Assembly: GCA_012515615.1 (NCBI GenBank)
Contig: JAAYYB010000246.1
Coordinates: forward strand, 1 to 46,005
Source of the DNA: Fibrobacter sp.
GTDB taxonomy: Bacteria; Fibrobacterota; Chitinivibrionia; Chitinivibrionales; Chitinispirillaceae
Reading direction: 5' to 3'
Length of the DNA: 46,005 nt
Shown here: in pieces, positions 2,172 through 21,902 of the stretch
Position numbering within the stretch: the stretch's first letter is position 1
Layout of the letters: the number at the start of each line of letters is the position of its first letter
Program-made: the position numbers and the translations under genes
Notes under the pieces: generated by a model
Seen by the model: the letters and a program-made list of their open reading frames with translations, nothing else
What the model was told of the DNA's origin: nothing
Database searches by the model: none

Positions 2172-2242
2172 TTTTTTCACTCCAATACTGCGTGTTTGTT
2201 ATCCGGCCCGATTGCCAGAGCGCTGATTTCACTGGTATTGCC

Positions 2243-2563
2243 CTATTTCTCTTCAGAAAACGGCATTTCCTCGCCCCCGGGAACCTGCTGTTCTCTTTTC
2301 ATATGCACCTGCTGAAGGAGTCCGCCTTCAAGCAGATTAGAGTCATCAACATCGATGTCAGTAAGAACACCCTTGAAAAAAATATCTCCTACAATAAATC
2401 CGGCAAACCAGAACAGTGCGCCGCTCAGTGACGCAATGATGAGGCTCTGAACGATATTGAGCGGATCAAAGGGATCACTGCTGCCGGCCATATTTATAAA
2501 GAGTACGGCAAAGAAGGTGGTGAAACAGAGTATCGCGGCTATTTTTTTAATCCAGAAAACCAT
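2243..2563 (-). CDS. Small inner-membrane protein in the flagellar operon
   Basis: A 106-residue protein with two hydrophobic segments, about residues 6-25 (IAAILCFTTFFAVLFINMAG) and 38-64 (SLIIASLSGALFWFAGFIVGDIFF), then an acidic soluble tail of about 40 residues. It lies between flhG and fliA with short gaps on both sides and has a GGCGGGA-type ribosome site before its ATG. I do not recognise the family. The context implies a membrane protein tied to flagellar export or placement, but no function can be read from the sequence. Confidence 0.65.
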   Translation of the reverse strand: MVFWIKKIAAILCFTTFFAVLFINMAGSSDPFDPLNIVQSLIIASLSGALFWFAGFIVGDIFFKGVLTDIDVDDSNLLEGGLLQQVHMKREQQVPGGEEMPFSEEK

Positions 2564-2585
2564 TCATTCCCGCCAGTCACTGGTT

Positions 2586-4726: not shown

Positions 4727-4759
4727 ATCACTCCAACAGCCGGATACTTCCCGGCACCC

Positions 4760-6847: not shown

Positions 6848-6906
6848 CTCTAATCTTTCCTGCGTCGTCCCTCTTTAAGTCATTACATCATAATACATTA
6901 AATGTA

Positions 6907-6935
6907 ATAGTATCTCTAAAAACCACCCGGGGCAA
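6907..6935 (-). promoter_or_regulatory. Possible sigma-70 promoter before flhA
   Basis: On the minus strand, TTGCCC is followed after exactly 17 bases by TACTAT, about 60 bases upstream of the flhA start. A perfect palindrome, TACATT-A-AATGTA (6894-6906), touches the -10 box on the transcribed side. The 134-base flhB-flhA gap is unusually long for this tightly packed operon, which supports a regulatory function. Inferred only from matches to consensus. Confidence 0.4.
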
Positions 6936-6981
6936 GACAATTCTGAATCTGTTGTCAATAATTTCCAGTTTTTCTTTCTGA

Positions 6982-8049
6982 TCACGCGGCAGTCTTGTTT
7001 TTAAGCCGGTAAACATAGGCAAGAATCTCTGCCACAGCGGTGAAAAATTCCACAGGAATAGGAAGCCCCAGTTCCACTTTATCGTACATCGCCCTTGCCA
7101 GTGGTTTATCTTCTATGATTGGTACATGATTTTCTTTGGCGATGGCCTTTATCCGCTCTGCGATTATCCGTTTTCCTTTTGCGATCACTACCGGAGTATT
7201 ATCCTTCGGTGGCTCATAGCGCATCGCAATCGCAATGTGAGTGGGGTTTGTGACAACGACCGTTGCTTTAGGCACATTTTCCATCATGCGCCGCCGGGCC
7301 ATTTCCCTCTGAAGAGAGCGTATTCTGGCTTTGACCTGCGGGTCTCCTTCCATCTGTTTTCTCTCTTCTTTAAGCTCCTGATGGCTCATTTTGAGCTGTT
7401 TTTCGTGATCAAAGCGCTGATAAGCATAGTCAAGTATCGCGATTATGATAAGTACGATAGCAATCCTCAGTATAACCTTGTATGCGACTGCGGCAGTAAA
7501 ACTCCAGATTGTAATAATGGAAGCATCGGTTAAAAGAAGCATCTTGTCAAATTCATTTTTGAGAGTTATATAGGCCACAATTCCTATAACAGAAAGTTTT
7601 GCGATGCTCTTTATCGTTTCTACCATCGATCGCATAGAGAAAAGGCGTCCAAAACCGGTAAGGGGATTGATTTTTTCCCATTTAGGGACAAGCGGTTTGA
7701 GCGTGAAGAGAAACCCGACCTGAACGATGTTGGCAAATACACCAATTATCATTATGGCACCGGCAACAGGCAGTGTCGTTTTTGCAAGCAGGACCAATCC
7801 CTCGTAAATCAAGCGGATAGCCCTTGCCTGGTCCATGCTGGTATCAGAGATTATTCTAAGAAATTCAACTGTGCTGGAGTTTAACTGCTGCATTATCGAA
7901 GGGCCCAGCATTTTGAGAAGTACAATTGCCGTCAAGAGCACCAGAACCGAATTGATTTCGGTGCTTTTGACTACATTGCCCTTCTCCCGTGCCTCCTGCC
8001 GTCGCTTCTCCGATGGGGCTTCAGTCTTTTCGTCGCTTCCTTCAGCCAT
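6982..8049 (-). CDS. flhB: Flagellar export switch protein FlhB
   Basis: FlhB changes export specificity from rod/hook to filament substrates. The 355-residue protein has an N-terminal charged stretch (EGSDEKTEAPSEKRRQEARE), four membrane segments, and a cytoplasmic domain with the self-cleaving NPTH motif at residues 268-271. The motif KGxR-like AKGKRIIAERIKAIAKENHV and IIEDKPLARAMYD follow as expected. It works with FliK (encoded at the start of the neighbouring hook operon). GGAGAAA lies directly before the ATG; the gap to fliR is 13 bases. Confidence 0.98.
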   Translation of the reverse strand: MAEGSDEKTEAPSEKRRQEAREKGNVVKSTEINSVLVLLTAIVLLKMLGPSIMQQLNSSTVEFLRIISDTSMDQARAIRLIYEGLVLLAKTTLPVAGAIMIIGVFANIVQVGFLFTLKPLVPKWEKINPLTGFGRLFSMRSMVETIKSIAKLSVIGIVAYITLKNEFDKMLLLTDASIITIWSFTAAVAYKVILRIAIVLIIIAILDYAYQRFDHEKQLKMSHQELKEERKQMEGDPQVKARIRSLQREMARRRMMENVPKATVVVTNPTHIAIAMRYEPPKDNTPVVIAKGKRIIAERIKAIAKENHVPIIEDKPLARAMYDKVELGLPIPVEFFTAVAEILAYVYRLKNKTAA

Positions 8050-8062
8050 TTTCTCCAGTCAC

Positions 8063-8851
8063 TCACGACATCAGATAAAGTAATTTCCAGATATCCTGGA
8101 TAAGAGCCTCAACCATCCTCTGAAAAAATGATGCAAGGAGCGGCAGAACAATAATCGCAGAACCCAGTCCCACCGCGATTTTCAGAGGCAAACCGACAAA
8201 GAAAATATTGATCTGCGGGACAGTGCGGGCCACAACACCCAGCGAAAGTTCTGTCAGAACCAGTGTCACATATATAGGAGCAGAAAATTTTATTGCAAGA
8301 ACAAAAACATTACCCACAAGGGCAGTAACATGGAACGCCAGCTGTCCTGAGGGAAAATGAACATTCATCAGGGGGACAAGTTCAAAACTTTTCTGTATTG
8401 CCAGAATGAGAAAGTAGTGACCATTAAACAACAGAAACAGGATCGTAAAGATTATTACCTGCAACTGCCCCAGCACCGTCACAGGTTCGTCTGTAAAGGG
8501 GTCCATCAATTCCACAAATCCAAACCCTATTTCAGTATCAATCAGTCTTCCCGCAAACTGCACCGCAGTAAAGAGAAGTGAAGAAACAAAGCCTATCCCC
8601 AGTCCGACTGCGGCTTCCTTTACAATCAGCATGATAAAGGTTCCCGTGGACAAGGGCTGAGAAGTCACCGGCCCGATACTCATCACGGAATTGAACAGAA
8701 TGAGAGCCAGAATGAGTGAAAGAGCCACCTTAAGCTGTACCGGAACCGCCTGCGACCCGAAGATCGGCAACAGTGCAATAGTGGTGCTTATCCTTACAAA
8801 TATCAGAAGGAAATACTCGACCTGGTCAAGTGAAAAAGGGATCATTTCCAC
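8063..8851 (-). CDS. fliR: Flagellar export protein FliR
   Basis: An integral membrane component of the export gate, forming the FliPQR pore. The 262 residues contain about six hydrophobic segments, with family-typical stretches RISTTIALLPIFGSQAVPVQ near the N-terminus and PQINIFFVGLPLKIAVGLG near the C-terminus. The first codon is a GTG that shares its G with the fliQ stop codon (TAGTG), so the two genes are translationally coupled; an in-frame ATG lies two codons further on. Confidence 0.96.
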   Translation of the reverse strand: MEMIPFSLDQVEYFLLIFVRISTTIALLPIFGSQAVPVQLKVALSLILALILFNSVMSIGPVTSQPLSTGTFIMLIVKEAAVGLGIGFVSSLLFTAVQFAGRLIDTEIGFGFVELMDPFTDEPVTVLGQLQVIIFTILFLLFNGHYFLILAIQKSFELVPLMNVHFPSGQLAFHVTALVGNVFVLAIKFSAPIYVTLVLTELSLGVVARTVPQINIFFVGLPLKIAVGLGSAIIVLPLLASFFQRMVEALIQDIWKLLYLMS

Positions 8852-9120
8852 TACTTGATCACACTCCCTATCAGGTCAAACAGCGAATAGGTGTATTCCA
8901 GAATCTTCAGCAGCATCCATGGCATCAGAGCCAGAAAAACCAGCACCATGACAAGAATTTTTGGAATAAAAGTCAGTGTCATTTCATGGATCTGGGTCAC
9001 AGCCTGGAAAACTCCGATAATAAGGCCTATAAGAAGCCCCGATACAAGCATCGGACCGGAGATAAGAAGCGTGATCCAGATTGCCTGACGTCCTATATCA
9101 ATAACTGTCGTTGCATCCAC
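8851..9120 (-). CDS. fliQ: Flagellar export protein FliQ
   Basis: An 89-residue protein with two membrane segments, the normal size for FliQ, part of the FliPQR export pore. Family features include the AIWITLLISGPMLVSGLLIG segment and the loop IGVFQAVTQIHEMTLTFIPK. The start codon is GTG with GGGG five bases upstream. It lies between fliP and fliR with a 13-base gap and a 1-base overlap. Confidence 0.96.
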   Translation of the reverse strand: MDATTVIDIGRQAIWITLLISGPMLVSGLLIGLIIGVFQAVTQIHEMTLTFIPKILVMVLVFLALMPWMLLKILEYTYSLFDLIGSVIK

Positions 9121-9133
9121 AATTACCCCGCCG

Positions 9134-9985
9134 TCAATTGAAAGAAGTTACAAGCTGCCGTACAATAAGATGCCATCCATCAATAAGAACAAACAGGATG
9201 ATTTTAAAGGGCATGGAGATCATTATCGGCGGCAGCATCATCATACCCATTGACAGAAGCACCGAGGCTACAATCATATCGATTACCAGAAATGGGATGT
9301 AGAGAATAAAACCGATTATAAAACCGGTTTTAAGCTCACTGGTTATAAAAGCCGGGATAATTACCTGATAAGGGAGATCATCAGCGTTTCTTGGAGGAGC
9401 CATTTTAGAAATCCTTACAAACAGTGCCACATCATTTTCACTTACCTGACGAAGCATGAAGTTGCGTACCGGTTTGCCGGCAACCTTCAGAGCATCGTTA
9501 AACTGCAGTTCCTGTTTAAGGTATGGCTGAATCGCATTGTCATTAATCTCGGTTAAAACAGGCATCATGACAAACAGAGTAAGAAAAAGTGACAGTCCAA
9601 CCATGATCTGGTCAGGAGGCATAGTTTGTGTGCCTATCGCTCTTCTTAGAAAAGACATCACAATAATTATTCTTACAAATGATGTCACCATGATCAGTAT
9701 TGAGGGAGCGAGGGCTAAAATGGTAACAAGGAAAAGTACCTGAAGAGCGACGGCAACATCTGCGGGCTTGTTTGAATCAACAACCGACAACGTAAGTTTG
9801 GGAAGAACCTGAGCGCTTAAGCCCACAATCGCGGGACCAAGCAGAATCAGCATCGCTGCAATCATCTCCGTTCGCACCGCATGCAAGTACTTTGTCAAGC
9901 TGCTCATGAAAGAATTAAAGTTTCTTCCCGAAATTACCGAAACAGATACAGGGGATGATCTCTTTATGAATGGCAATTTGATCAT
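9134..9985 (-). CDS. fliP: Flagellar export protein FliP
   Basis: Core component of the export-gate pore. At 283 residues it matches the family, with the conserved block VTSFVRIIIVMSFLRRAIGT, then QTMPPDQIMVGLSLFLTLFV and a C-terminal SMGMMMLPPIMISMPFKI. About 35 polar residues precede the first hydrophobic segment, longer than a simple signal peptide. The ATG overlaps the fliO stop by four bases (ATGA), and this coupling supports the chosen start. Confidence 0.97.
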   Translation of the reverse strand: MIKLPFIKRSSPVSVSVISGRNFNSFMSSLTKYLHAVRTEMIAAMLILLGPAIVGLSAQVLPKLTLSVVDSNKPADVAVALQVLFLVTILALAPSILIMVTSFVRIIIVMSFLRRAIGTQTMPPDQIMVGLSLFLTLFVMMPVLTEINDNAIQPYLKQELQFNDALKVAGKPVRNFMLRQVSENDVALFVRISKMAPPRNADDLPYQVIIPAFITSELKTGFIIGFILYIPFLVIDMIVASVLLSMGMMMLPPIMISMPFKIILFVLIDGWHLIVRQLVTSFN

Positions 9986-10539
9986 ACCGGCTTTTTCATC
10001 TTTCCAATAAAATTATTGAATGCATCCTTGAATTGAACTATTGAACTTCCACCCTTGCTGGATGCGATAAGGTCAATCGCTTTCTGGCCCTCTATCTTCT
10101 CCAGAAGCACTATTGAATTGGGAGTCTGTCCCAGAAGGTAAACCGAATCCATAACCCTGACCAGTATAGCATTGCGGTTTTGTCCAAATGGCAGAACTTC
10201 CAGTACATCCATGGCGCCCCCGCCGCCGATTTTTGATGATCCGGAAATCCCGAATTTGCGCATAAACCAGGCCAGACCCAGAATCAGCAGAATAGTAATG
10301 GCAAGATAGAAAACGATCCGAAATACAACCGCGGTGTAGTTTTCGCTCTGTTTCTTTACAGGCGAATACTGTCCCAACCCCGAATCTCCGATGCTGCTGG
10401 CAGCTTCCCTGACCTTCCCGATGTCAAAATCACCGGTTCCGGTCTTAGCCTCCTGGGCCATTGAGATCGTAAACAGACTTAACGAAAGAAAGAACATGAC
10501 GGCAAGGCGGATTTTTTTCTTAACAGCTTTTGACAACAC
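9982..10539 (-). CDS. fliO: Flagellar biosynthesis protein FliO
   Basis: FliO stabilises FliP during assembly of the export pore. The protein has a hydrophobic N-terminal segment resembling a signal sequence (KKKIRLAVMFFLSLSLFTIS), a second membrane segment (FRIVFYLAITILLILGLAWF), and a soluble domain with the family-typical SVYLLGQTPNSIVLLEKIEG. The frame is open back to an ATG at 10614, but no good ribosome site fits it. AAAGGGG lies about 10 bases before the GTG at 10539, directly ahead of the signal-like segment, so I prefer that start (185 residues). The start is uncertain; the family call is good. Confidence 0.82.
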   Translation of the reverse strand: MLSKAVKKKIRLAVMFFLSLSLFTISMAQEAKTGTGDFDIGKVREAASSIGDSGLGQYSPVKKQSENYTAVVFRIVFYLAITILLILGLAWFMRKFGISGSSKIGGGGAMDVLEVLPFGQNRNAILVRVMDSVYLLGQTPNSIVLLEKIEGQKAIDLIASSKGGSSIVQFKDAFNNFIGKMKKPV

Positions 10540-10674
10540 GAATTTTTCGGCCCCTTTCAGATTTTCTAACCGGCTCATCAAGCGGGGCCGCAATGAGCAC
10601 TCTAATAACCACATTCCGGTACTCAGGGCCCCGCACCCGCCAACCGGAACAGGTTTTAATTGTAATATGCAGAA

Positions 10675-11721
10675 TCAGCGAAGGCTTTTTATTCTCTCCT
10701 CAGGAGAAACAAGTGAAACAATGCGTATCCCGAAACTCTCATCTATCACAACGACTTCACCTTTGGCAACGACTTTGTTATTTACAAGCAGATCAACCGG
10801 TTCTCCTGCCATGCGGTCAAGTTCCACGACGGCTCCGGGTGCAAGTTCCAGTATCCTTTTTATCGTCAGAGAGGATCTCCCAAGCTCTATGCTCACGTCA
10901 AGATCAACATCAAGAAGCATTTCTATGTTCTCTTTTGGGGCTTTAATTGGAGCGCCGGTCAGTGTCACTTCACGGAAATCGCCCTGCTGTGACTCAAATG
11001 AGGTTACCCTTGAGAGCTCATCCAGTTCCGATGAGTTAAATCCAACCGGGGCCTGAGCAGTTTCCTCCTGAGAAGAGACTGTCACTGCTGCGGCAACAGC
11101 ATCCGCGAAAGAACTCGAAAAATAGAGTACCGCAGCAGAATTCACTTTTTCCCCAACCGAAACAGTAACCGGCACCATCAAGGAAGTGGCCAGCGGTTCG
11201 GGGAGAATACTTAAATCAAGATCGGAAGTACTGACACTCCCACCACTTATCTTTACCCCGACCTCATTGACTGATGCATTTTCGAAGGCATTTATCACCT
11301 GATTTATCATCTCGTTCATCGCTTCGCGATGATCATCATTGTATTGTGCTGTCCCGTCCCCCATAAGCATAAGATCGGAGATAACCGCTACATCACCTTT
11401 TCTCATGAGAAGATGGAACTGTCCCACAATACCAGATTTGACCATAATGGTCAGAAGCACCCCGTTTTGACCCACGATCTCTTCTAAAGAGGACAAATCA
11501 GCCTTACGACTTTCCTCTGCAATGAACATAGTATCTGTGTTCAGAACTGTTGAGACAATGGTACCGGCATGGCCGCAGAAAGAATTGATAAATGTTTTGA
11601 GCGCCGGTCCAATATCAGACTGAGGTGCAGATGCTGAATCCAGCCCGGATACGGAGCTGCTGTCGAGATTTTCCGATGACAATAAGGCATCGATCTGCTC
11701 TTGAGAAAGTATGTCACTCAT
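10675..11721 (-). CDS. fliN: Flagellar switch protein FliN/FliY (CheC-like domain plus SpoA domain)
   Basis: A 348-residue C-ring protein, far longer than a minimal FliN of about 100-140 residues. It carries an N-terminal peptide MSDILSQEQIDALLS, a CheC/FliY-like middle domain (with DDHREAMNEMINQVINAFEN, where CheC-type phosphatases carry the E..N active-site pattern), and a C-terminal SpoA/FliN domain from about residue 250 (MLLDVDLDVSIELGRSSLTI). This is the FliY layout known from Bacillus, spirochaetes and Thermotoga, in which the protein can dephosphorylate CheY-P. Catalytic activity is inferred. It overlaps fliM by eight bases. Confidence 0.93.
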   Translation of the reverse strand: MSDILSQEQIDALLSSENLDSSSVSGLDSASAPQSDIGPALKTFINSFCGHAGTIVSTVLNTDTMFIAEESRKADLSSLEEIVGQNGVLLTIMVKSGIVGQFHLLMRKGDVAVISDLMLMGDGTAQYNDDHREAMNEMINQVINAFENASVNEVGVKISGGSVSTSDLDLSILPEPLATSLMVPVTVSVGEKVNSAAVLYFSSSFADAVAAAVTVSSQEETAQAPVGFNSSELDELSRVTSFESQQGDFREVTLTGAPIKAPKENIEMLLDVDLDVSIELGRSSLTIKRILELAPGAVVELDRMAGEPVDLLVNNKVVAKGEVVVIDESFGIRIVSLVSPEERIKSLR

Positions 11722-12751
11722 CGCAGCCCCCGATCTCCTTTTCTAGAATATTTGTAATTCTTATGGCCTTTTTTCTTCCAATAAGCCCGGAACGGGCCGA
11801 CATCTTGGTTTTGCCTTCAATCTGCACTGCCAGATCACTATCGTAGGGCTTATCCAGACAGAGAATATCGCCTCGCTGAAGCTGCAGAAGGTCACGTATT
11901 GTCAATGATGTCTTCCCAATCACAGTAGATAGACTCAATGTAATATCACTGATTTCGTTCTCAAGCAGTTCTCTTGTCTCGTTTGTCGCCTCACTCTGTG
12001 AGGACATCCATGACTCACCGGAAAGGTTGTTAATAACGCTTTCAAGCAGTATGTATGGGAAACAGAGGCTCATGAGTCCCGAGGCATTCTGCATCCTTAC
12101 TTCAAGAGAAATCAGTATCACTGTTTCACCGGGAGGAGCGATCTGTACAAACTGAGGATTGGTTTCGTAAGTCTCGATTTTGGGACTGAAAACCCCTACA
12201 TGTTCCCAGACGTTTTTAAGATCCACAAGACTCCGTTCAACGATACGGTTCATGACATTCTGCTCAATGAGAGTCATTTCCCTGTTCTGTTCAGCGGGTC
12301 TGCCCTGGCCACCGAAAAGCCGGTCAATTATAAAAAACACCAGTGAGGGGTTAATTTCAAGTATTGCGTTGCCGCTGAGCGGCTCCATCTTGAACAGATA
12401 GATGCAGCTTGGGTTAGATATCGACATTATAAATTCAGAATATGTAAGCTGATCCACGCTCACCAGCTCAATTTCCACAAATGTTCTCAGAAAGTTGGTG
12501 AGAGTTGTTGAGAATTGACGAGCGTAACCCTCGTGGAGGTTCTGCAGGGTACGCATCTGGTCCTTTGAAACGCGGTCGGGCCTGCGGAAGTCATATAGAG
12601 CAAGCGAGTTTTCCAGATCAGCTGATTCGCTGCTGTTGAATAGATTTGCAGAAGCATCTCCACCGGGGCCCGATTCCGCAACATCACCTCCGCCGGTAGA
12701 AACCGCTGACAACAGGGCATCAACTTCTTCCTGTGATAATATATCGCTCAC
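11714..12751 (-). CDS. fliM: Flagellar motor switch protein FliM
   Basis: Central C-ring protein that binds CheY-P and switches rotation. At 345 residues it has the normal length. The N-terminal MSDILSQEEVDALLSAV is the CheY-binding segment. The middle domain shows FRRPDRVSKDQMRTLQNLHE and the C-terminal SpoA domain LGKTSLTIRDLLQL-type sequence (here GKTSLTIRDLLQLQRGDILC). The start codon is GTG with AGAGG upstream. It follows fliL by 12 bases. Confidence 0.97.
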   Translation of the reverse strand: MSDILSQEEVDALLSAVSTGGGDVAESGPGGDASANLFNSSESADLENSLALYDFRRPDRVSKDQMRTLQNLHEGYARQFSTTLTNFLRTFVEIELVSVDQLTYSEFIMSISNPSCIYLFKMEPLSGNAILEINPSLVFFIIDRLFGGQGRPAEQNREMTLIEQNVMNRIVERSLVDLKNVWEHVGVFSPKIETYETNPQFVQIAPPGETVILISLEVRMQNASGLMSLCFPYILLESVINNLSGESWMSSQSEATNETRELLENEISDITLSLSTVIGKTSLTIRDLLQLQRGDILCLDKPYDSDLAVQIEGKTKMSARSGLIGRKKAIRITNILEKEIGGCDE

Positions 12752-12763
12752 AGTAACCTCTTG

Positions 12764-13312
12764 TTATTGAATAATAAATGTTGTAAAAAGAACGTCTCTG
12801 ACCTCCCCTATCCTGGGCGGCAGTGACTTGTTTACCAGTCTAACAAGATCTTTCCTTATTTTCTCTTTTGCGTTCGGTTCTGTCACCTCGACCAGATTCA
12901 GCTTCGAAAGGTGATCGATCAGAAGGTCCTTGAATCTTGGTGTTCTCCTCAGAAGCTCCTCTGAGAGTGTCGGAAAGGCCTTGTCATCATACTCAAAAAT
13001 TACTGCGGCCTTAAGGAAACGTTCTCCATCTGTACCGGCGATATTTACAATTGCCTCTATCGGGTTATCGGCTGTAGTTGCCCCCATTGTGGTAGTCTGC
13101 TCGACAACCTTCTTGAGCGAATCAGCCTGTACAATCGCGATCTTTTCTTCCGGGGTCTTGGGACGGGTAACAGAAATTATAACAAATGCAATCACAATAT
13201 TTAGAACAATCATCCCGGCAAGAATACCGAAAAAAAGGATACGGTTTCCTTTTTCCTCGCCAGCCTTTTTCTCCGGAGCAGCTTCCAGTTCACTTCTTCT
13301 TCTCTCATCCAT
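12764..13312 (-). CDS. fliL: Flagellar basal-body-associated protein FliL
   Basis: A 182-residue single-pass inner-membrane protein: a charged cytoplasmic N-terminus, a membrane segment at about residues 26-48 (ILFFGILAGMIVLNIVIAFV), then a periplasmic stomatin-like domain. The C-terminal KSLPPRIGEVRDVLFTTFII is typical of FliL. It surrounds and supports the MotAB stator. GGAG lies 8 bases upstream of the ATG. The position between motB and fliM fits. Confidence 0.93.
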   Translation of the reverse strand: MDERRRSELEAAPEKKAGEEKGNRILFFGILAGMIVLNIVIAFVIISVTRPKTPEEKIAIVQADSLKKVVEQTTTMGATTADNPIEAIVNIAGTDGERFLKAAVIFEYDDKAFPTLSEELLRRTPRFKDLLIDHLSKLNLVEVTEPNAKEKIRKDLVRLVNKSLPPRIGEVRDVLFTTFIIQ

Positions 13313-13375
13313 TACTCTGACTCCATTCTGTGCATTTTCAAAAGAATTAGGGTACGGGCGCTCTGTTTCCTGCGC

Positions 13376-14092
13376 TCATTCTTCCTTCTGAACATAATCG
13401 ACATAGATCTCTATTCTGCGATTCATCCTTCGGTTCTCAATTGAAGTATTAGGTACCAGAGGACGATATTCGCCATGTCCGATTGCGCTGAGCCTTGAAG
13501 GTTCGATTCCGCCGGATCTGGCCATGAATTTTACTATGTTAAGAGCTCTTGCGGCGCTGAGTTCCCAGTTTGAAGGGTATTTATAATTATGGATCGGAAT
13601 ATCATCTGTGTGTCCTTCAACCCTGATCTGAGTGCCTGGAACCCGGTTTATTATCTGTGAAATAGAATTGAGTGCCGGTATCAGCTCCGGTTTGATTTCT
13701 GCTTCACCAACATCAAAACCTATAGGATCGCTTACCTTTATCGCGATCCCTTTTTCTGTCACTTTCACCTTTATGGCATCTTCCAGATTCTCTTCCTTGA
13801 TCGTTTTTTTTATTCTCATGCTGGCATCCATTGCAAGATGCTTGTTCTGGTCATTGCCTCCAAGCCTTGGAACCATCACCTCTTCGGTGATAAGTATCGA
13901 GGGATACGATTCCAGAACTCCGCCAAGGGCATTATGCAGTGAAGAAGCCGCGACATCAAACTTTGCGGGATCTGTAGTTGACATGGCGATAAGCATCACA
14001 AAAAAGCAGAGCATCAGCGTGCACATATCTCCCCAGGTCAGCATGTATGCCGGTGTGCCGCGCGGCGGGTCCGATTTTTTTTCCCTGGCCAT
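13376..14092 (-). CDS. motB: Flagellar motor stator protein MotB
   Basis: Stator subunit that anchors to peptidoglycan and carries the ion-binding aspartate. In the single N-terminal membrane segment (YMLTWGDMCTLMLCFFVMLI), Asp22 corresponds to that residue. A C-terminal OmpA-like peptidoglycan-binding domain is shown by IRVEGHTDDIPI, NWELSAARALNIVKF and LSAIGHGEYRPLVPN. At 238 residues it is within the family range. GGAGAGCGG precedes the ATG; motA is 12 bases upstream. Whether protons or sodium drive it cannot be decided here. Confidence 0.97.
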   Translation of the reverse strand: MAREKKSDPPRGTPAYMLTWGDMCTLMLCFFVMLIAMSTTDPAKFDVAASSLHNALGGVLESYPSILITEEVMVPRLGGNDQNKHLAMDASMRIKKTIKEENLEDAIKVKVTEKGIAIKVSDPIGFDVGEAEIKPELIPALNSISQIINRVPGTQIRVEGHTDDIPIHNYKYPSNWELSAARALNIVKFMARSGGIEPSRLSAIGHGEYRPLVPNTSIENRRMNRRIEIYVDYVQKEE

Positions 14093-14104
14093 CCGCTCTC
14101 CTTA

Positions 14105-14881
14105 TTACCTCTGATTTCTGTCTTTCATTGCCGCAGCCCTTAGCCCCGGCTGAAGAAATGCGGTAAGCTTCTGCTCTACGATACGGGGATTATCTCCCGA
14201 TTGTAAAGACATTATTCCCTCAAGCATCAGTTCTTTAATCAGTATCTCCCTGCGTGAATATGCTTTTAACTTCTCCACTATTGGAAGACATATACAGTTT
14301 GCCAGCATCGAGCCATAAAATGTGGTTATTAGAGCCACAGCCATGTTGGGCCCGATTGAATCCACATCACTCATGTTTCCAAGCATTAGAACTAGACCGA
14401 TCAGTGTTCCTATCATTCCAAATGACGGCCCCATTGCTGCAAGGAAATCAAAAACCTTTGTACCCTCTTCGTGACGGGACTCTGTAAAGGTAATCTCAGT
14501 ACTGAGAATATCTTTAATCAGGTCCGGCTCTGTTCCGTCAACCGCAAGCTGGATACCTTTTTTCAGAAATTCATCATTTATATCAGCAGCCCGGGCCTCC
14601 AGAGCCAGAATTCCCTCTCTGCGCGCCTGTTCCGCAAATTCTACAAGCTGCTTTATAATGTCAATATGTGTGATTTTCTTTACAAAGAAGGCATTTTTAA
14701 CAACACCCATTGTATTAAGGAGCATGCTGGCCGGATAAGCGGCAATGGTAGCGGCAACCGCTCCGCCTACTGTAATGTAGACAGATGGCATGTCTATAAA
14801 GGCCATCACATTTTCTAATTTAATGCCTAAAATGACAAGTAAAAGCGCTCCCGCCAACCCGAGAATGGTTGCAATATCCAT
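14105..14881 (-). CDS. motA: Flagellar motor stator protein MotA
   Basis: Pentameric stator channel subunit that couples ion flow to torque. The 258-residue protein has four membrane segments: two near the N-terminus (ATILGLAGALLLVILGI and YITVGGAVAATIAAYPASML), and two near residues 150-205 (GPSFGMIGTLIGLVLMLGNM and ALITTFYGSMLANCICLPIV). The cytoplasmic loop between them is acidic/basic, as needed for contact with FliG. AAGGAG lies 10 bases before the ATG. It precedes motB directly. Confidence 0.97.
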   Translation of the reverse strand: MDIATILGLAGALLLVILGIKLENVMAFIDMPSVYITVGGAVAATIAAYPASMLLNTMGVVKNAFFVKKITHIDIIKQLVEFAEQARREGILALEARAADINDEFLKKGIQLAVDGTEPDLIKDILSTEITFTESRHEEGTKVFDFLAAMGPSFGMIGTLIGLVLMLGNMSDVDSIGPNMAVALITTFYGSMLANCICLPIVEKLKAYSRREILIKELMLEGIMSLQSGDNPRIVEQKLTAFLQPGLRAAAMKDRNQR

Positions 14882-14905: not shown

Positions 14906-15139
14906 CTATGACTGATCCGGATTGTCTTCCGATCCGTCCTTCTTTACAATCCGGGGTCCCTGATTACATAACTGTTTATATTTTATAGTTTTGCGCACGA
15001 TTTCTTCAAGGCTGTTCTGCACCATCAGCTTTTTTCCATTTGTTAAGGTGAGAACCGTGTCGGGGGTAGACTCTATAGTCTCAATAAGGTCGACGTTCAG
15101 GATGAATTCCTGACCATTTATCCGCTGAAGAGCAATCAT
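14906..15139 (-). CDS. flbD: FlbD/SwrD family flagellar protein
   Basis: A 77-residue protein matching the FlbD family: it begins MIALQRINGQEFILNVDLIE, followed by TIESTPDTVLTLTNGKKLMV, then a short charged tail. In Bacillus the homologue SwrD increases stator power, and genes of this family commonly precede motA, as here. It is the first gene of the operon. GGAGG lies 5 bases from the ATG, and a near-consensus promoter lies just upstream. Confidence 0.93.
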   Translation of the reverse strand: MIALQRINGQEFILNVDLIETIESTPDTVLTLTNGKKLMVQNSLEEIVRKTIKYKQLCNQGPRIVKKDGSEDNPDQS

Positions 15140-15159
15140 TGTTACCTCCGTAAGCTACT

Positions 15160-15188
15160 ATCATAGCATAGCATACAACTAATTGCAA
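15160..15188 (-). promoter_or_regulatory. Sigma-70-type promoter for flbD-motAB-fli-flh-fliA operon
   Basis: On the minus strand, TTGCAA (15183-15188) and TATGAT (15160-15165) are separated by exactly 17 bases. The predicted start of transcription, near 15153, leaves a leader of about 14 bases containing the GGAGG of flbD. The match is close to the housekeeping consensus and no sigma-54 element is present. Confidence 0.7.
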
Positions 15189-15199
15189 TAAAATGTAAG

Positions 15200-15235
15200 A
15201 AAAACGGCATACAGTTTTTCTGTGATACCGTTTTT
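15200..15235 (-). terminator. Hairpin terminator after flgE
   Basis: An inverted repeat with an A-tract at one end and a T-tract at the other: AAAAACGG...ACAG, a five-base loop, then CTGT...CCGTTTTT, with one mismatch and one bulge. It lies 10 bases after the flgE stop codon and immediately before the flbD promoter, so it separates the hook operon from the motor/export operon. The symmetric A/T tracts would permit function in either direction. Confidence 0.7.
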
Positions 15236-15245
15236 CCCATTTTTA

Positions 15246-17366
15246 TTACCTCACAAGCTGCACGAGTTCCTGGAGCATGGAGTCACTTGTGGTGATCACC
15301 CTTGCGTTTGCCTGGAATCCCCGCTGGGTTGAAATCATGGTCGTAAATTCAGACGCCAGATCAACATTTGACATCTCTAAAGCACCAGGTTTTACCCTGG
15401 TTGTGGAACCGATTCCCGGACGAAGCATAACTGCCTGACCGGAGTTATTGGAAACAGCATACACACTGTCACCCATTTTCAGCAGCCCCGCGGGGTTGTT
15501 GAATTCGGCGACATAGATTCTGGCGATAGATTTGGAGATACCGTTTGTGTAAATACCAGAGATCTCTCCGGTTTCATCGATGGAAATCTCCTGCAGCTTA
15601 CCCATCGTATAACCGTCCTGTTCTCTGGCCGCCGTTGTGGTCTCGGATCTGAACTGGGTTATTCCGCGAAATGAACCGGGAGTACCCACATTGAGGTTGA
15701 TTGAGACAATGTTTGACCCGTTCATCGGCTCAAAACGGAAATTGGAAGACTGATCATCGTAAGTAAATGATGAAGGAGATCCGTCCTGCCCGAAAGTAAT
15801 CCTTCCGCGGTTACCGCCCAGGATCTGCTCTCCGCCTTCCATGTTTACTTCCCATAGCCATTCACCCGGAGTACCGGTGTGAGTGAAAGTGGTAGTCATT
15901 GTATGAGCGTCGCCGGACTCATCATACACTACAATAGATGTGCTGTGTGAGCCTGTATCTCTGGCGGCCTGAATCTCTGTAAAGCCCAGGTTAGCATTGA
16001 AGCGTGTCGGGGCCGGAGACTGATTATTGCTGTTTGCAGCCTGGATCGAGAGCGCTGTTATACCGAAAGCACGTTCCGGCTGTCCTCTAAGGACAATGGA
16101 TCCGTCCGGAATCCGGTCATCATCGGTATTGGCGCTGTTGATGCTCACCGAGGGGTTATCGTAGATCGTACCATCGGTTTGCGGAAAACGGAACGCCTCC
16201 TGAATCCTGACCACCAGGTCGCCCAGAGTAGAAACCGAGGTTTCGTCGAGAGGATCTGTGGCCTCATAGGTAGCATTTACCGGTGGGATATTCGTCCCGC
16301 CGACTGCCCCGTTTATCCTTATGACATCATCGGCCTCAAGCCCCAGGGCCTGACCGTTCGCATCATAGAGTTCGCTTATCAGACTGTCGGCAGTAGCTGG
16401 TGCCCGTAATCCGGTGATACTTACCGGAGTGGCATTTAAAATTGAGGGCGGGAAAACCAGTGCGTTTGCCACATAGGAGTTTGACCCGGCTCTTGAACTG
16501 CGTACCTGCAGACCGTTTACCGAAGCCACTGCTGATATGCTGAGATCAACCGTCAAGCCATCATCGGAAGGGTTGACAGTAATGAAATTGTCGCCTGTTC
16601 TGTCGCGCAGATAAGTCTGAATCATACCGGCCAGGTCGGTCACGGTCATACCTTCAGTAACCTGGAAGAGTCCTTCTTCCTCACCTGCGATTGACACTAC
16701 GATATTGTCGCCAACCACTATTCCCAGATCATTTCCGTTTGAATCGTAGAGTGCTGTGAGAGTGGAATCCTGGGTTGCCTGAACCAGAAATCTGTTTGAG
16801 TGGGTAATTGTCCCCAGACCCTCTGAGTCAGAATCGAGGTTACAGCCGTATCTGACTTCTGTGGTTGTGTTGGCAGGAGACTTCTCCCCGAAGGGAATTC
16901 TTAAATCTCCGATGCTTGTTCCGGCAGGGTAACTTCCATCAGGAGCAGCCATCATTCCCTGAAGTCTGTATCCATTTGTGGGAAGAACAAGCCTTCCAAG
17001 AGCATCGAACTGAAGGGCGCCATTGCGGCTGTAGAAATTTCCTTCGCCATTTGAATAGGCAAAGTAGGCGTTTCCTTCCAGAGCCAGGTCTGTTATCTGA
17101 CCGGTAGTCTGGAGGTTACCCTGGGTAAGAATCACATCTGTAGAGCCGACCGACATCCCCAGGCCGACCTGCAGAGGGTTTGTACCACCGGCATTTCCGT
17201 CGGGTCTTGTGGCACCCGCTATAAGCTGGGCCATCGATTCCTCAAATGTGACCCTTCCGGCCTTGAAGCCGACAGTATTGACATTGGCGATATTGGCACC
17301 TGTGACATCCATTGCAAGCTGGTGATTTTTCAAACCACTGATGCCAGCGTAAAGAGATCTAACCAT
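15246..17366 (-). CDS. flgE: Flagellar hook protein FlgE
   Basis: Main subunit of the hook, the universal joint of the flagellum. The N-terminus (MVRSLYAGISGLKNHQLAMD, then NIANVNTVGFKA) and the C-terminus (NVDLASEFTTMISTQRGFQA and the coiled-coil end) carry the conserved rod/hook motifs. At 706 residues it is much longer than the roughly 400 of enteric FlgE; the extra sequence lies in the surface-exposed middle domains (about residues 180-560). GGGAGGC precedes the ATG. It is the last gene of the sigma-54-dependent hook operon. Confidence 0.95.
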   Translation of the reverse strand: MVRSLYAGISGLKNHQLAMDVTGANIANVNTVGFKAGRVTFEESMAQLIAGATRPDGNAGGTNPLQVGLGMSVGSTDVILTQGNLQTTGQITDLALEGNAYFAYSNGEGNFYSRNGALQFDALGRLVLPTNGYRLQGMMAAPDGSYPAGTSIGDLRIPFGEKSPANTTTEVRYGCNLDSDSEGLGTITHSNRFLVQATQDSTLTALYDSNGNDLGIVVGDNIVVSIAGEEEGLFQVTEGMTVTDLAGMIQTYLRDRTGDNFITVNPSDDGLTVDLSISAVASVNGLQVRSSRAGSNSYVANALVFPPSILNATPVSITGLRAPATADSLISELYDANGQALGLEADDVIRINGAVGGTNIPPVNATYEATDPLDETSVSTLGDLVVRIQEAFRFPQTDGTIYDNPSVSINSANTDDDRIPDGSIVLRGQPERAFGITALSIQAANSNNQSPAPTRFNANLGFTEIQAARDTGSHSTSIVVYDESGDAHTMTTTFTHTGTPGEWLWEVNMEGGEQILGGNRGRITFGQDGSPSSFTYDDQSSNFRFEPMNGSNIVSINLNVGTPGSFRGITQFRSETTTAAREQDGYTMGKLQEISIDETGEISGIYTNGISKSIARIYVAEFNNPAGLLKMGDSVYAVSNNSGQAVMLRPGIGSTTRVKPGALEMSNVDLASEFTTMISTQRGFQANARVITTSDSMLQELVQLVR

Positions 17367-17479
17367 AAACTGCCTCCCGGGTCAGCGAGGCACTGCGGAA
17401 TTCCGGGCCGCTTCAGTCAATCAGCAAGCCCTTTTGCATCCGTCCGGAGCTAAAAGCGCACCGGTTCGGTCCTGCACAT

Positions 17480-17896
17480 TCAGTCCGCAATAACCGCGCT
17501 ATCGATGTTTGTAAAAACGTTCTCCCTGATACTCTCCCCATCCATGGCAGTTACTACCGTTCTGTTCGGAACATTAACTATGAACGCCAGATTCTTCATG
17601 AGAATAAGAGAATCCCGTGCGCCCTTTTTTGCGGCTCCCGACACCGCTTTTTCAAGTTTGTCCATGATCTCAGGAGTCAGATTTATGTTACGGCTTTTTA
17701 TGCGGGTTTCCGCATGTGCCGAGAGTCTGATTCCATCAACTTTAGACTTGAACACCTCTGAAAAGCCGGCTGTATTTGCCCGCGCTTTTTCGGTGCCTTG
17801 AGTCTGGACCGGAGTACCTCTTGAAACCGCACCACTCCTGTGCGCAGCGATCAGATGCTGCATATCGATGGGCTTTCCTGCCGCCTGCGTGTTCAT
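17480..17896 (-). CDS. Flagellar operon protein, TIGR02530 type
   Basis: A 138-residue protein of the small family found between flgD and flgE in many non-enteric flagellar operons. The conserved core begins at about residue 55 (GIRLSAHAETRIKSRNINLT), followed by EKAVSGAAKKGARDSLILMK and IVNVPNRTVVTAMDG. The N-terminal 40 residues are polar and variable. Its exact role is not established; the fixed position suggests hook or hook-cap assembly. The ATG overlaps the flgD stop by four bases, so the two are coupled. Confidence 0.88.
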   Translation of the reverse strand: MNTQAAGKPIDMQHLIAAHRSGAVSRGTPVQTQGTEKARANTAGFSEVFKSKVDGIRLSAHAETRIKSRNINLTPEIMDKLEKAVSGAAKKGARDSLILMKNLAFIVNVPNRTVVTAMDGESIRENVFTNIDSAVIAD

Positions 17897-19137
17897 GCTG
17901 CACTCCCTTCCTTGTCACCGACATCGGCTATATCAACTATGTCTGAGAGATCAACTAAATATCCGTCAACTCTCAGCCTGGAGCTTCCCCCCAGATTTGA
18001 TATGCCGTCAACCGTTCCCTCGAAAAAAGCATAGGTCATCGGATTTTTCTCTTCACCGTCGATTCTTATGCGGTATTCTCCAGCCTCTGCATAGGTCCCG
18101 GCCTGCGTTTCCCCGCTCCAGGACATCTCAGCGACTCCGTAGCTGTTCGTGTATACATTACCTGTAAACACAACGTTGCCCGAAGCGTCAAGAAGGTCAA
18201 CTTTTACCCGGCTGTTTGGCGCTGCGTTGACCGCAAATGTTGCCACTTCACCGTCCTGCTGCCGGTAGGAAACTGAACTCTGACGGATACGCACCTCTTT
18301 TCCAAGAAGCGATACTGCCGTTGACGGAGAGAGAGAATCGAGTGACGATCCGCTGCTTCCTGCAATCGAAACATCCATGATATTTGAAATTGAAAGCTCT
18401 TTCCCTGAAACCTTTACCATCGCTCCTTCACTGGTAAACCTCACGCCGGAAACTAAATCCTCATCGTAGGCAAACAGAGCAGGATTATTTTCCTCTCCGG
18501 CTATTCTGATTGTGTACTTTCCGGCTGCGGCATGTTCGCCGTTATCCGTGGTTCCATCCCACTGGACATTGACGGAGTTCATGGAATCCTTTCCTTCTGC
18601 CTTGAGTGTCCTCACCACCGTACCCTCACTGTCAAGCAGTTCCACCATCGCCTGCTCAGCGTTGCCCAGATGAACCCGGATCTGCTCCGTTTCACCGGTT
18701 ATAGCTGAGTAGTCAACAGATGTCTGGCGGAGACGAACACTCTTCCCTATGAGTGAGACTGCCCCGGTATTTGTTATCGACTGCGCGCTGTACTTCTGCG
18801 CATCGACAGTTTCCTTGAACGAACTGTCAAGGTTACCAATCGCCTTTTCGATATTTGAGTTGCTTTCAAGCGACCGGAACTGGGCCAGCTGTGACACAAA
18901 CTCCGTGTTTTCCATAGGATTGAGCGGATCCTGGTATCTGAGCTGAGTAACCAGCAGAAGCAGGAAATCATCCTTGCCCATCTCTTTTCCCGCCTCAGAA
19001 AACAATCCGCCGGTTCTGTCACCGGTTACACTGCTTGTCGATGCATCAATTGAACCGTCCTTAACTGAGGCACTGGCTGTGTAAGGCTGCGATGAACCAG
19101 TCAGCTTAGATACATCCATGCTTAATCCCATATTCAC
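17893..19137 (-). CDS. flgD: Hook capping/scaffold protein FlgD with duplicated C-terminal module
   Basis: FlgD caps the growing hook and guides FlgE assembly. The N-terminal FlgD signature is clear (GKDDFLLLLVTQLRYQDPLN, then NTEFVSQLAQFRSLE). At 414 residues it is far longer than the usual 220-260. The extra length is a second copy of the FlgD C-terminal Ig/Tudor-like module: residues about 128-262 begin AVSLIGKSVRLRQTSVDY and about 274-405 begin AVSLLGKEVRIRQSSVSY, each with a GKYTIRIAGEENNP/GEYRIRIDGEEKNP block and a closing SNIMDVSIA/SDIVDIAD strand. The start may be GTG at 19137 or ATG at 19131; a GGGGG run suits either. Confidence 0.94.
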   Translation of the reverse strand: MNMGLSMDVSKLTGSSQPYTASASVKDGSIDASTSSVTGDRTGGLFSEAGKEMGKDDFLLLLVTQLRYQDPLNPMENTEFVSQLAQFRSLESNSNIEKAIGNLDSSFKETVDAQKYSAQSITNTGAVSLIGKSVRLRQTSVDYSAITGETEQIRVHLGNAEQAMVELLDSEGTVVRTLKAEGKDSMNSVNVQWDGTTDNGEHAAAGKYTIRIAGEENNPALFAYDEDLVSGVRFTSEGAMVKVSGKELSISNIMDVSIAGSSGSSLDSLSPSTAVSLLGKEVRIRQSSVSYRQQDGEVATFAVNAAPNSRVKVDLLDASGNVVFTGNVYTNSYGVAEMSWSGETQAGTYAEAGEYRIRIDGEEKNPMTYAFFEGTVDGISNLGGSSRLRVDGYLVDLSDIVDIADVGDKEGSAA

Positions 19138-19195
19138 CCCCTTTCCTGATTATAAGGAACCCAGCTGACAGGAATCTGTCAACTGGAAATTCCCG

Positions 19196-20812
19196 TTATC
19201 CGAAAAACTCCACCGTATTGCTTCCAAACCTGCGGCCGGTCTCCTGGCCTGTTTGCGCTACGGTACCGGTCTCTAATGATGTCTGCAGATCTTCTCCCGA
19301 AAGAGAACCGGAAACATTGTGCTGTTTTGCAAAGCTACTGTCTCCAGCCTCACCGGGCTGCCTTCCCCATCCGCTTCCGACATTGACATCAAATGAACCG
19401 GCCTGGAGATTATGCTCGCTAAGAGAATCTTTCAGTGACTGAAGATTGCTTTCCACAATCTGCTTCACCTGCTGGCTCTCCACCTGGATTTTGGCGATTA
19501 CCACATCACCGTCCATGCGGATCCTCAGTTTTACTTCTCCCAGCGATTCCGGCCAGAGCTGAATTTTGACCTCAGAGGCACCCGCGCGAACTGCCGAATG
19601 CATTTTCTGAGAGATCTGATTCATCACCGATTCATCGATGCTCTTGTAATTACCGGTCATTTTTGTCTCAAACAAAGCACTGTTTTTTGCCCCGGAAAGT
19701 GTCTTTCCTATAGATTCAGCAATCGGCAGTATTTCAACTTCAGAATTGACTTTTGCGACATCCCTAGCCACAACCGGGCCAAGCGCGGCATTGAGATTGA
19801 GCTTCTCACCGCCTGATACCGCAGCCTCGCTGTTCTCAAGAGAGACCTTTTCCTTTACTTCAAGCTTCAACATCGCTCTGTAAGTGAGTGTATCGATATT
19901 TGTTACCGACACCGGCCTGTTTTCAGAAACAACCTGAATGGATGCATTAGATGACCGTTCAGAGTTCTGGTTCACAAGCTCCATTACCTTCTTTGCCAGC
20001 GCAGCAAGACCATCTCCGGGCTCTTCAATTAAATTCCCGAAAACCTTCTTTATCTGGTCTTCAGGCATCATAAGCTCGGAAAGACTGCTGGCCTGAGGAA
20101 TCCCGCCGCTAAACGGAAGATTCATCTGTGAAGCGACCTGAGTCTGCACCTGCTCAGAAACGCCAAGCATATTGAGACCGATCTCGATCCTGAAGAGCTC
20201 AGTGCGCAGTACCTGCACCATCTCTGTTGCTTTCTGAGGATCAATTCCACCATTACCCGTGAGTATCGGCTCATTCCCTGCCGCGGAAGCCTCAAGCACA
20301 CCGGCAATTCCTTTCAGTGCCTCGATTATTTCCGCAAACTGCCCGACAGTCTCTTCAGATACATTCTCCAGATTCAGTTCTTCCAGCTCCGGAGCAACCT
20401 TCAATTGCAGAACCTCGGAAATAGTCTGTAAAGATTCTTTGATTATTTCCGTAGCCTGATTAAGGTCCTCCTCATTTCTGGCTTCAGCAGGTATTGTGTC
20501 GGAGATCTCACCAACACGATCTGTCGTCTGATTCTCAATGCAATTGGCCTGTCTGGTCACGGCTGGATCATCCTGATTCCTGGTCTCGCGAACCACCCTG
20601 GATTCGACAGTTGAATCTGTCCCTCTGTTTGCATTGACATTTTCGCGGGCAACTTGTCTGTAAGTATCCTTGAAACTTGCAGCTTTTGGCTCCCTGGAAA
20701 AACCGAACCCCGTCTCAGAAGTCCTCCTTCCGGTATCCTGTAAACGGTCCATCCGGCTTTTAGGCATTTCATTGCCGCTGGAAAGGTTAAACAACATCGC
20801 GTCTGTTCTCAT
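19196..20812 (-). CDS. fliK: Flagellar hook-length control protein FliK
   Basis: Molecular ruler that measures the hook and triggers the FlhB specificity switch. The N-terminal two thirds are polar, low in aromatic residues and poorly conserved. The C-terminal domain at about residues 410-485 is typical of the FliK family: EVKIQLWPESLGEVKLRIRM, then IAKIQVESQQVKQIVESNLQ and LKDSLSEHNLQAGSFDVNVG. I chose the ATG at 20812 because AAGGAGGT lies eight bases before it; a GTG at 20821 would overlap that site. The 538-residue length fits a longer hook ruler. Confidence 0.9.
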   Translation of the reverse strand: MRTDAMLFNLSSGNEMPKSRMDRLQDTGRRTSETGFGFSREPKAASFKDTYRQVARENVNANRGTDSTVESRVVRETRNQDDPAVTRQANCIENQTTDRVGEISDTIPAEARNEEDLNQATEIIKESLQTISEVLQLKVAPELEELNLENVSEETVGQFAEIIEALKGIAGVLEASAAGNEPILTGNGGIDPQKATEMVQVLRTELFRIEIGLNMLGVSEQVQTQVASQMNLPFSGGIPQASSLSELMMPEDQIKKVFGNLIEEPGDGLAALAKKVMELVNQNSERSSNASIQVVSENRPVSVTNIDTLTYRAMLKLEVKEKVSLENSEAAVSGGEKLNLNAALGPVVARDVAKVNSEVEILPIAESIGKTLSGAKNSALFETKMTGNYKSIDESVMNQISQKMHSAVRAGASEVKIQLWPESLGEVKLRIRMDGDVVIAKIQVESQQVKQIVESNLQSLKDSLSEHNLQAGSFDVNVGSGWGRQPGEAGDSSFAKQHNVSGSLSGEDLQTSLETGTVAQTGQETGRRFGSNTVEFFG

Positions 20813-20862
20813 CCGACTCACCTCCTTTCTGTGGAATAATAATGTATAGGGTTATTCATGAG

Positions 20863-21438
20863 TCAAAGACCCATCATTCTGGTTATTCTCGATGCTTTTT
20901 CGGTTGAAAGCGCAGAGATAATCTTTGCTTTCTGCCGATCATCATTCATAGCGTCTAAAAGCTTTACAGCAAGATCATCCTGAAGAGTCTCAAGGATCTG
21001 TGCCGCTTCTGCAGGACGCATGGCTGCGTATACTTTTGAAAGCTGTCTTACCTTCTTGTCATCCAGAGAATCACTGCGGGAGACCAGGTTCTCAAGCTTT
21101 GTCCGCTCACCCTGAAGAAGCTTGTACTGAGACTCCATTTCCCTCTGCATCATGTCAATACGCTGCTGCTGCTCGATGAGCCGGGCGCGGTCGTTCTCTA
21201 TCTGGGCCCGCTCTTTCTGAAGAGCCTGAAAAGTGCGGGAGTTGAGCTCTGCAAGGGAATCTTTACGTGCGGTCTGTTTCATAAATTCCACTTTTCTGTC
21301 CTCCTGAGGAGTCTCTTTCTTCTGCTCAAATTCGATATGTGCAACACCGGTAAGAAACATCAGCAGGATATAGAGCACAGGGAATGAAATGACCGTTACG
21401 ACTGCGATTGCTATTATGTCTTTAAGTTTTAGCTTCAT
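20863..21438 (-). CDS. MotE-like flagellar protein (MgtE_N domain)
   Basis: A protein of about 191 residues with an N-terminal membrane segment (IIAIAVVTVISFPVLYILLM), a long charged coiled coil (about residues 45-125 of the mature reading) and a C-terminal MgtE_N-type domain: LSKVYAAMRPAEAAQILETL, DDLAVKLLDAMND and ISALSTEKASRITRMM. This is the layout of MotE, the periplasmic MotB chaperone, which commonly follows fliJ and precedes fliK. The frame extends to an ATG at 21486, but that codon lies inside the sigma-54 -12 element, so the start must be further in; ATG 21438, with GGGG upstream, fits. Confidence 0.85.
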   Translation of the reverse strand: MKLKLKDIIAIAVVTVISFPVLYILLMFLTGVAHIEFEQKKETPQEDRKVEFMKQTARKDSLAELNSRTFQALQKERAQIENDRARLIEQQQRIDMMQREMESQYKLLQGERTKLENLVSRSDSLDDKKVRQLSKVYAAMRPAEAAQILETLQDDLAVKLLDAMNDDRQKAKIISALSTEKASRITRMMGL

Positions 21439-21481
21439 GAAGTAGCCCCGATTGAGAGAACACTTTTCGTGGGGATATATA

Positions 21482-21497
21482 TGCAAGCTCTATGCCA
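21482..21497 (-). promoter_or_regulatory. Sigma-54 (-24/-12) promoter of the hook operon
   Basis: On the minus strand TGGCATAGAGCTTGCA matches the RpoN consensus TGGCACG-N4-TTGCA with exact spacing of the invariant GG and GC. Transcription would begin near 21470, about 30 bases before the motE-like ATG at 21438. Sigma-54 dependence of hook genes is well known in many flagellated bacteria. The activator gene and its upstream binding sites are not identified here. Confidence 0.75.
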
Positions 21498-21902
21498 ACA
21501 GAATACCTCCCCGTGACTTATTCTTAAAGCCAGTTATTTCAATGACTTAAGATCCACCAAGCAGCCTGTTTTGATCAGAAAGGAATTTTTTTCCCCTGCC
21601 CAGGGGAATGATCTGCCTAAACCGTGGAAAAAAATGCCTGTTGATGGTACAGGATTCGATAGTTAATTAGTTCTGTTTAGATCACCATTGTAAGCCGACT
21701 GTGCCAGGTCGAGGCCCTATAATAGCCTGGTGAGGAGCGGAAGTAGTGCATTGAGCAAAGCCCAAAGGAGAAAATTCAGTTTGGCTGGACTCCGCACACC
21801 GGACTCCAGGTGAAAACTTCGACACTGAAGAAGCGCTTCTTGAGAGATCTAAGAAGTTAATTCGAAAATCAACAACTTCTGTCCACCTGACCCGGAGGAT
21901 AA
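21498..21902. other. Gene-free, structured-looking intergenic region
   Basis: A 405-base stretch between the divergent hook operon and the NTF2-like gene. It should hold any enhancer sites for the sigma-54 promoter. It contains a perfect CCCCTG-CC-CAGGGG palindrome (around 21594-21607) not followed by a T-run, so not a terminator. From about 21695 to 21900 it has several local complementary segments: CCAGG...CCTGG near 21706-21733, AAGAAGCGCTTCTT near 21829, and AGAAGTT...AACTTCT near 21850-21880. A 109-codon frame on the minus strand has no ribosome site and is rejected. No known RNA family is recognised. Confidence 0.4.

Follow-up and report, generated by a model that had tools for sequence, protein, structure and literature searches.

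Chitinispirillia/Chitinivibrionia (Fibrobacterota) carry a conserved sigma-54 promoter with a predicted enhancer before the flagellar hook operon and group MS-ring and rotor genes with it

We analysed a stretch of 46,005 nucleotides from the genome of an uncultured Chitinispirillaceae bacterium, Fibrobacter sp. (contig C256; hereafter the window), in which the genes studied all lie on the minus strand (Table 1). In the direction of transcription, a -24/-12 element is followed by a motE-like gene, fliK, flgD, a TIGR02530 gene and flgE, which confirms the content of the hook operon as given in a preliminary description of this DNA; the motE-like gene weakly matches the spirochete collar protein FlbB, below the cut-off. 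Downstream of flgE follow a hairpin, a sigma-70-type promoter and the motor/export genes from flbD to fliA. Among these, FlhF scores over the TIGR03499 cut-off and is directly followed by a MinD-type, FlhG-like ATPase. FlhF and FlhG are a feature of polar flagellates. Chitinispirillum alkaliphilum, a cultured member of the class, is motile by a single flagellum (PMC4814513). At 414 aa, FlgD of the window is unusually long; a second Ig-like region follows its standard FlgD portion. Elsewhere in the window (22317-23171), a 284-aa protein is encoded that is probably a PRC-barrel protein; its match to photosynthetic reaction centre subunit H (puhA) is weak and falls far short of the cut-off.

The host genome is a 5.05-Mb draft in 430 contigs with an estimated contamination of 6.6%; a mix-up through contamination is unlikely, because the same arrangement is found in another genome of the same genus. 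For comparison we used 40 genomes of the Fibrobacterota class Chitinispirillia/Chitinivibrionia, which are related to one another, so that the counts given below are not independent. A flgE match was obtained in 38 of the 40, some of these matches being weak or to other rod proteins. The scoring matrices were hand-written from consensus knowledge, and their scores rank sites rather than represent probabilities.

Table 1. Flagellar genes and predicted control elements of the window
Feature	Position	Strand	Evidence or remark
Enhancer dyad 1, GGCATTTTTTTCC (minus-strand reading)	21626..21638		141 bases before the sigma-54 element; position conserved in the class
Enhancer dyad 2, GGCAGATCATTCC	21605..21617		21 bases from dyad 1
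Enhancer dyad 3, GGAAAAAAATTCC	21582..21594		23 bases from dyad 2
Sigma-54 -24/-12 element, TGGCATAGAGCTTGCA	21482..21497	-	pattern match; conserved in 25/25 class genomes
MotE/FlbB-like gene, first of the hook operon	20863..21439	-	start ATG 21439
fliK, hook-length control	19196..20821	-	Pfam Flg_hook 3.5e-19
flgD, hook cap, long form	17893..19137	-	profile matches
TIGR02530 flagellar protein	17480..17896	-	TIGR02530 112 bits, cut-off 83
flgE, hook protein	15246..17366	-	profile matches
Hairpin then T-run, predicted hook-operon terminator	15199..15238	-	-22.3 kcal/mol, z -6.8
Sigma-70-type promoter TTGCAA-17-TATGAT, extended -10	15160..15188	-	promoter scan
flbD, first gene of the motor/export operon	14906..15139	-	Pfam FlbD 3.7e-26
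motA, motB, fliL, fliM, fliN/fliY, fliO, fliP, fliR, flhB, flhA, flhF, flhG-like MinD, fliA	1407..14881	-	sigma-70-type unit

Scanning of the whole window revealed the hook element as the sole match to the -24/-12 pattern with at most one mismatch. The host genome contains 38 exact matches, so a single one proves little; sites with at most one mismatch number 342 as compared to 153 for the reversed pattern. The hook element gains its significance from conservation, as a high-scoring element occupies this position in all 25 class genomes with sequence upstream of fliK (the window included), whereas the background rate at this threshold is 0.018 per 400 bases. In two genomes that lack the MotE-like gene, the element is located directly before fliK. 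The perfect RpoN element that had been placed ahead of the hook genes is hence upheld, as is the proposed correction of the first hook gene: the TTG that opens the longest reading frame (21486) falls within the -12 box, whereas the ATG 43 bases past the element (21439) fits an N-terminus that is conserved in relatives.

At the other end of the operon, a hairpin recurs in the flgE-flbD gap of most class genomes. Its fold, its T-run and this recurrence speak for the terminator claimed previously, which a consensus scanner, however, did not list; we therefore treat it as predicted. The 17-spaced sigma-70-type promoter behind it is present as described, albeit weak when taken alone: 11 promoter-like sites were found in the region as compared to 7.4 expected, and the site is not significant region-wide, but it is the best one of the gap (p 0.01). 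Comparable sites occur in this gap in 20 of 33 class genomes at p<=0.05 and are unrecognisable in roughly one genome in three, among them every member of one family (f3). No sigma-54 element was found in the flgE-flbD gap of the class genomes, the best score being 5.9 of 19. Together, these observations support a sigma-70-type promoter that would serve the operon for the stator, FliM/FliN, the export gate, FlhFG and FliA.

The host genome encodes RpoN (PF04552 3.4e-59, contig C161), as a sigma-54 promoter requires, and a genome-wide scan for the same motif, which the preliminary description had suggested, was positive at further flagellar genes. Exact elements are located 45 bases before flgB, 29 bases before a flgJ-type gene that is followed by flgN and flgK, and 104 bases before a flagellin gene that is followed by fliW and csrA, while a weaker one precedes flgF. 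Across the class, elements are found before flgB in 28/30, flgJ in 30/30 and the flaB-type flagellin in 27/30 cases, and the flgF promoter of most genomes has a sigma-54 form with a weaker -12 box. A second flagellin of the host carries a perfect sigma-28 site upstream. Only perfect sigma-28 sites were used, because a two-mismatch pattern barely exceeded its control, and the class-wide flagellin search covered the few loci with a recognisable start. The product of the flgJ-type gene (L060, 1230-2015) joins a FlgJ-type rod-binding domain to an SLT lytic transglycosylase domain, and the gene stands first in its sigma-54 unit, ahead of flgN and flgK. Another perfect sigma-28 site (L287, C164:13399-13425) lies ~30 bases before a 55-codon frame (MGGVSNVASSIQAVNDMM...) that has no Pfam match and perhaps encodes a small motility protein. 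Outside the flagellar set, exact sigma-54 elements precede groES (L004), an ammonium-transporter-like gene (L012) and a polysaccharide-export-like gene (L072), all named as judged from their sequences.

A palindrome search revealed GGMA-N5-TKCC to be common to the regions upstream of the flagellar sigma-54 promoters. Exact dyads are present within 250 bases upstream of 78 of the 111 flagellar sigma-54 promoters, where dinucleotide shuffles predict about 1.8. Of the other sigma-54 sites of the host genome, 1 of 27 has such a dyad; the elements of groES and the ammonium-transporter-like gene have none. Since dyads with one mismatch also occur at 6 of these 27 control sites, we rely on exact and tandem dyads. 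Within a given promoter type their positions vary little, and the hook and flgB promoters have them in rows with a spacing of ~22 bases, or two helical turns. Tandem dyads exist at three places in the 5.05-Mb genome, two of them overlapping at hook and one at flgB, and at none in the reversed control. Over the 40 genomes there are 49 as compared to 5 in the control, and, as a comparison of coordinates shows, hook, flgB or flgJ lies immediately downstream of at least 31 of these. We predict that these rows constitute an enhancer, and the findings support the view that the hook operon of the class lies behind a conserved sigma-54 promoter with an upstream enhancer of its own.

A candidate for the protein acting at these dyads is found among the 12 sigma-54 activators of the host genome. 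Contig C179 encodes an activator with a receiver, an AAA and an HTH_8 domain. Its gene comes after that of a PAS-HisKA-HATPase kinase, and further upstream, in like orientation, lie fapA, a TPR gene and a flgN-like gene; all form one run, taken to be an operon (L395, 8489-9841 and L073, 3360-8492). Judged from its domain layout, the kinase should be soluble. It has a clear ortholog in every flagellated class genome; in two further genomes (G031, 96% complete; G003, 82%), in which flgE, flgB and flagellin were not found, only paralogs of 33-35% identity were detected. The regulator adjoins the kinase in 25 of 30 loci. In family f3 (L280-L284), the kinase is kept and the regulator is not adjacent, while hook elements and single dyads remain. 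NCBIfam models AtoC, NtrC, FlbD and FlgR all match the regulator below their cut-offs and are not specific, and the assignment of its role consequently rests on distribution and neighbourhood. Thus, the activator anticipated by the preliminary description has a plausible counterpart in an NtrC-type regulator whose partner kinase occurs only in flagellated members of the class. We infer that this regulator binds the dyads. The TPR gene of the same run weakly matches the spirochete collar protein FlcA; its product and that of the first hook gene are possible collar-like motor parts.

Membership of the dyad-bearing group does not follow the order proposed earlier, in which export and C-ring genes are made first and the hook genes after a sigma-54 checkpoint. 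In the flgB operon, flgB is followed by flgC, an 80-codon frame, fliE, fliF, fliG, fliH, fliI and fliJ, with no more than 63 bases between neighbours. A conserved sigma-54 element precedes this operon, as do the dyads that the hook operon has. The order flgB-flgC-fliE-fliF is kept wherever the class loci reach. A sigma-70 site before flgB reached p<=0.05 in 1 of 28 cases and none stands out; likewise, none was found before fliF. As worded, the earlier statement is hence not supported, since fliE, fliF, fliG and fliHIJ belong to the sigma-54 enhancer group. It would hold for FliM, FliN, the gate proteins and the stators, which are encoded in the sigma-70-type unit, but not for FliG, FliF and the export ATPase.

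We regard it as highly probable that the hook operon is a middle-class unit governed by the NtrC-type regulator, its kinase, the dyads and sigma-54, and that the motor/export unit is controlled separately. In this model, sigma-54 RNA polymerase would bind the -24/-12 element and wait there until the flagellum-specific regulator, activated by the soluble PAS kinase, binds the dyad row 97-141 bases upstream and opens the hook promoter. Through the same boxes, the regulator would drive flgB-flgC-fliE-fliF-fliG-fliH-fliI-fliJ, flgF-flgG and the genes that follow, flgJ-flgN-flgK, and the minor flagellin. Independently, the sigma-70-type promoter behind the flgE terminator would supply the stator, FliM/FliN, the export-gate proteins, FlhF/FlhG and sigma-28, which may then drive the other flagellin. 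Counting against the model are the 11 other activators of the genome, the separation of regulator and kinase in family f3, and the gap promoters that could not be recognised.

The position of fliF and fliG bears on the most serious alternative, namely that two sigma-54 sub-tiers exist as in Vibrio, with a FlrA/FleQ-like master acting early on flgB-fliJ and a FlrC-like regulator acting later on the hook genes. The flagellar kinases of C. jejuni, V. cholerae and P. aeruginosa need FliF, FliG and the export gate (PMC7064773). An earlier source of FliF and FliG would make sense for two-component systems with this requirement, and a genome with twelve activators could accommodate a second regulator. 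However, the flgB and hook promoters have the same tandem dyads, which are unique to these two in the genome, and the FleQ domain (PF06490) was found in none of the 10 activators scanned out of the 12. We thus consider sub-tiers unlikely. Less likely still is that element and boxes are genuine but provide a minor input, hook transcription coming mainly from an upstream sigma-70 promoter or from read-through: sigma-70-like sites do occur near the hook promoter in 6 of 25 genomes at p<=0.05, but neither the hook promoter of the window (p 0.73) nor that of its same-genus relative has such a site, and it is the sigma-54 element that is conserved across the class. A chance match within an ordinary single flagellar operon, for which one might cite the abundance of exact matches in the genome and the undivided block of related phyla (see below), can be dismissed, as this reading is already contradicted by five flagellar promoter types that are conserved across the class and have upstream boxes in common.

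Under the model of one shared regulator, a flagellar checkpoint of the kind suggested by relatives would probably work differently in this class, because FliF and FliG are made before the switch in Campylobacter, Vibrio and Pseudomonas. It is conceivable, though we put it forward tentatively and with somewhat less than even confidence, that MS ring, rotor, export ATPase, rod, hook and minor flagellin are switched on jointly by a single regulator through a single enhancer. The checkpoint would then not be a preassembled MS ring and rotor; rather, the input read by the kinase might be FliM/FliN/FlhF or the early export gate, or positive feedback by FliF/FliG might let the circuit prime itself. 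Priming could be provided by low basal or read-through expression that feeds the loop; otherwise, the kinase may respond to a different input, or fliF and fliG may be expressed early from a promoter that escaped detection. The class offers a natural test of what a flagellar kinase senses, because the presumed signal, FliF/FliG, would itself be a product of the switch.

The gene order of both operons is also found in other bacteria. In B. subtilis (fla/che) and Borrelia (flgB operon), the genes flgB...fliJ, a motE/ylxF-like gene, fliK, flgD, flgE, flbD, stator genes/fliL, fliM, fliN/Y, fliPQR, flhBA and flhFG form one sigma-A/sigma-70 operon. The same order is present here, but split by sigma-54 promoters and, after flgE, by the predicted terminator and a new promoter. 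Gemmatimonadota, Latescibacterota and Ignavibacteriae likewise have flgC-fliF-fliG-fliI-(fliK)-flgD-flgE-fliM-fliN-fliP-flhA as one contiguous stretch, and no convincing sigma-54 element was found before flgE within up to 7 kb in these three phyla. Locus L174 shows a partial match before flgE and locus L175 one with a mismatched -24 box, while a Nitrospinae contig does have an element upstream of flgE. It appears that the class has broken up this block and brought the first two of the resulting units under the predicted enhancer. Its genomes would thereby show how a sigma-54 promoter, together with a terminator and a new promoter, divided an operon that related phyla kept as one block.

The resulting arrangement resembles the FlgS/FlgR-RpoN system of Campylobacter jejuni and Helicobacter pylori, in which sigma-70 serves an early set, to which the export gate, FlhF/FlhG and FliA belong, sigma-54 serves proximal rod, hook, FliK, hook-associated proteins and the minor flagellin FlaB, and sigma-28 serves another flagellin (PMC3930126). 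The split of the two flagellins between sigma-54 and sigma-28 is the same as the flaB/flaA division of these organisms (PMC3930126). However, in FlgS/FlgR systems, FliF and FliG precede the switch and are needed for it, whereas here they belong to the sigma-54 group, and a FliF/FliG tier preceding the rod and hook genes was not found. FlgR, moreover, works without binding DNA, whereas here the upstream boxes are conserved and the regulator retains HTH_8. The kinase has a PAS domain as do FlrB and FleS, unlike that of the FlgS/FlgR system. Indeed, FlrBC of Vibrio and FleSR of Pseudomonas likewise pair a PAS-HisKA-HATPase kinase with an adjacent receiver-AAA-HTH_8 activator that serves rod and hook genes. 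These bacteria, however, have FlrA/FleQ in addition, a separate sigma-54 master activator that serves earlier genes. We recognised no such protein here, and flgB-fliFGHIJ has the boxes of the hook operon. The class thus appears to be a variant, not a standard member, of the FlgSR/FlrBC/FleSR-type sigma-54 hierarchy, that is, a lineage-specific version of the known base-first-then-hook program with MS-ring and rotor genes unexpectedly placed in the hook group. The sigma-54 flagellar programs known so far are those of Proteobacteria and Campylobacterota. In Fibrobacterota, the same sigma-54 idea would be written in a readable, predicted enhancer code, with the gene set cut at a different point.
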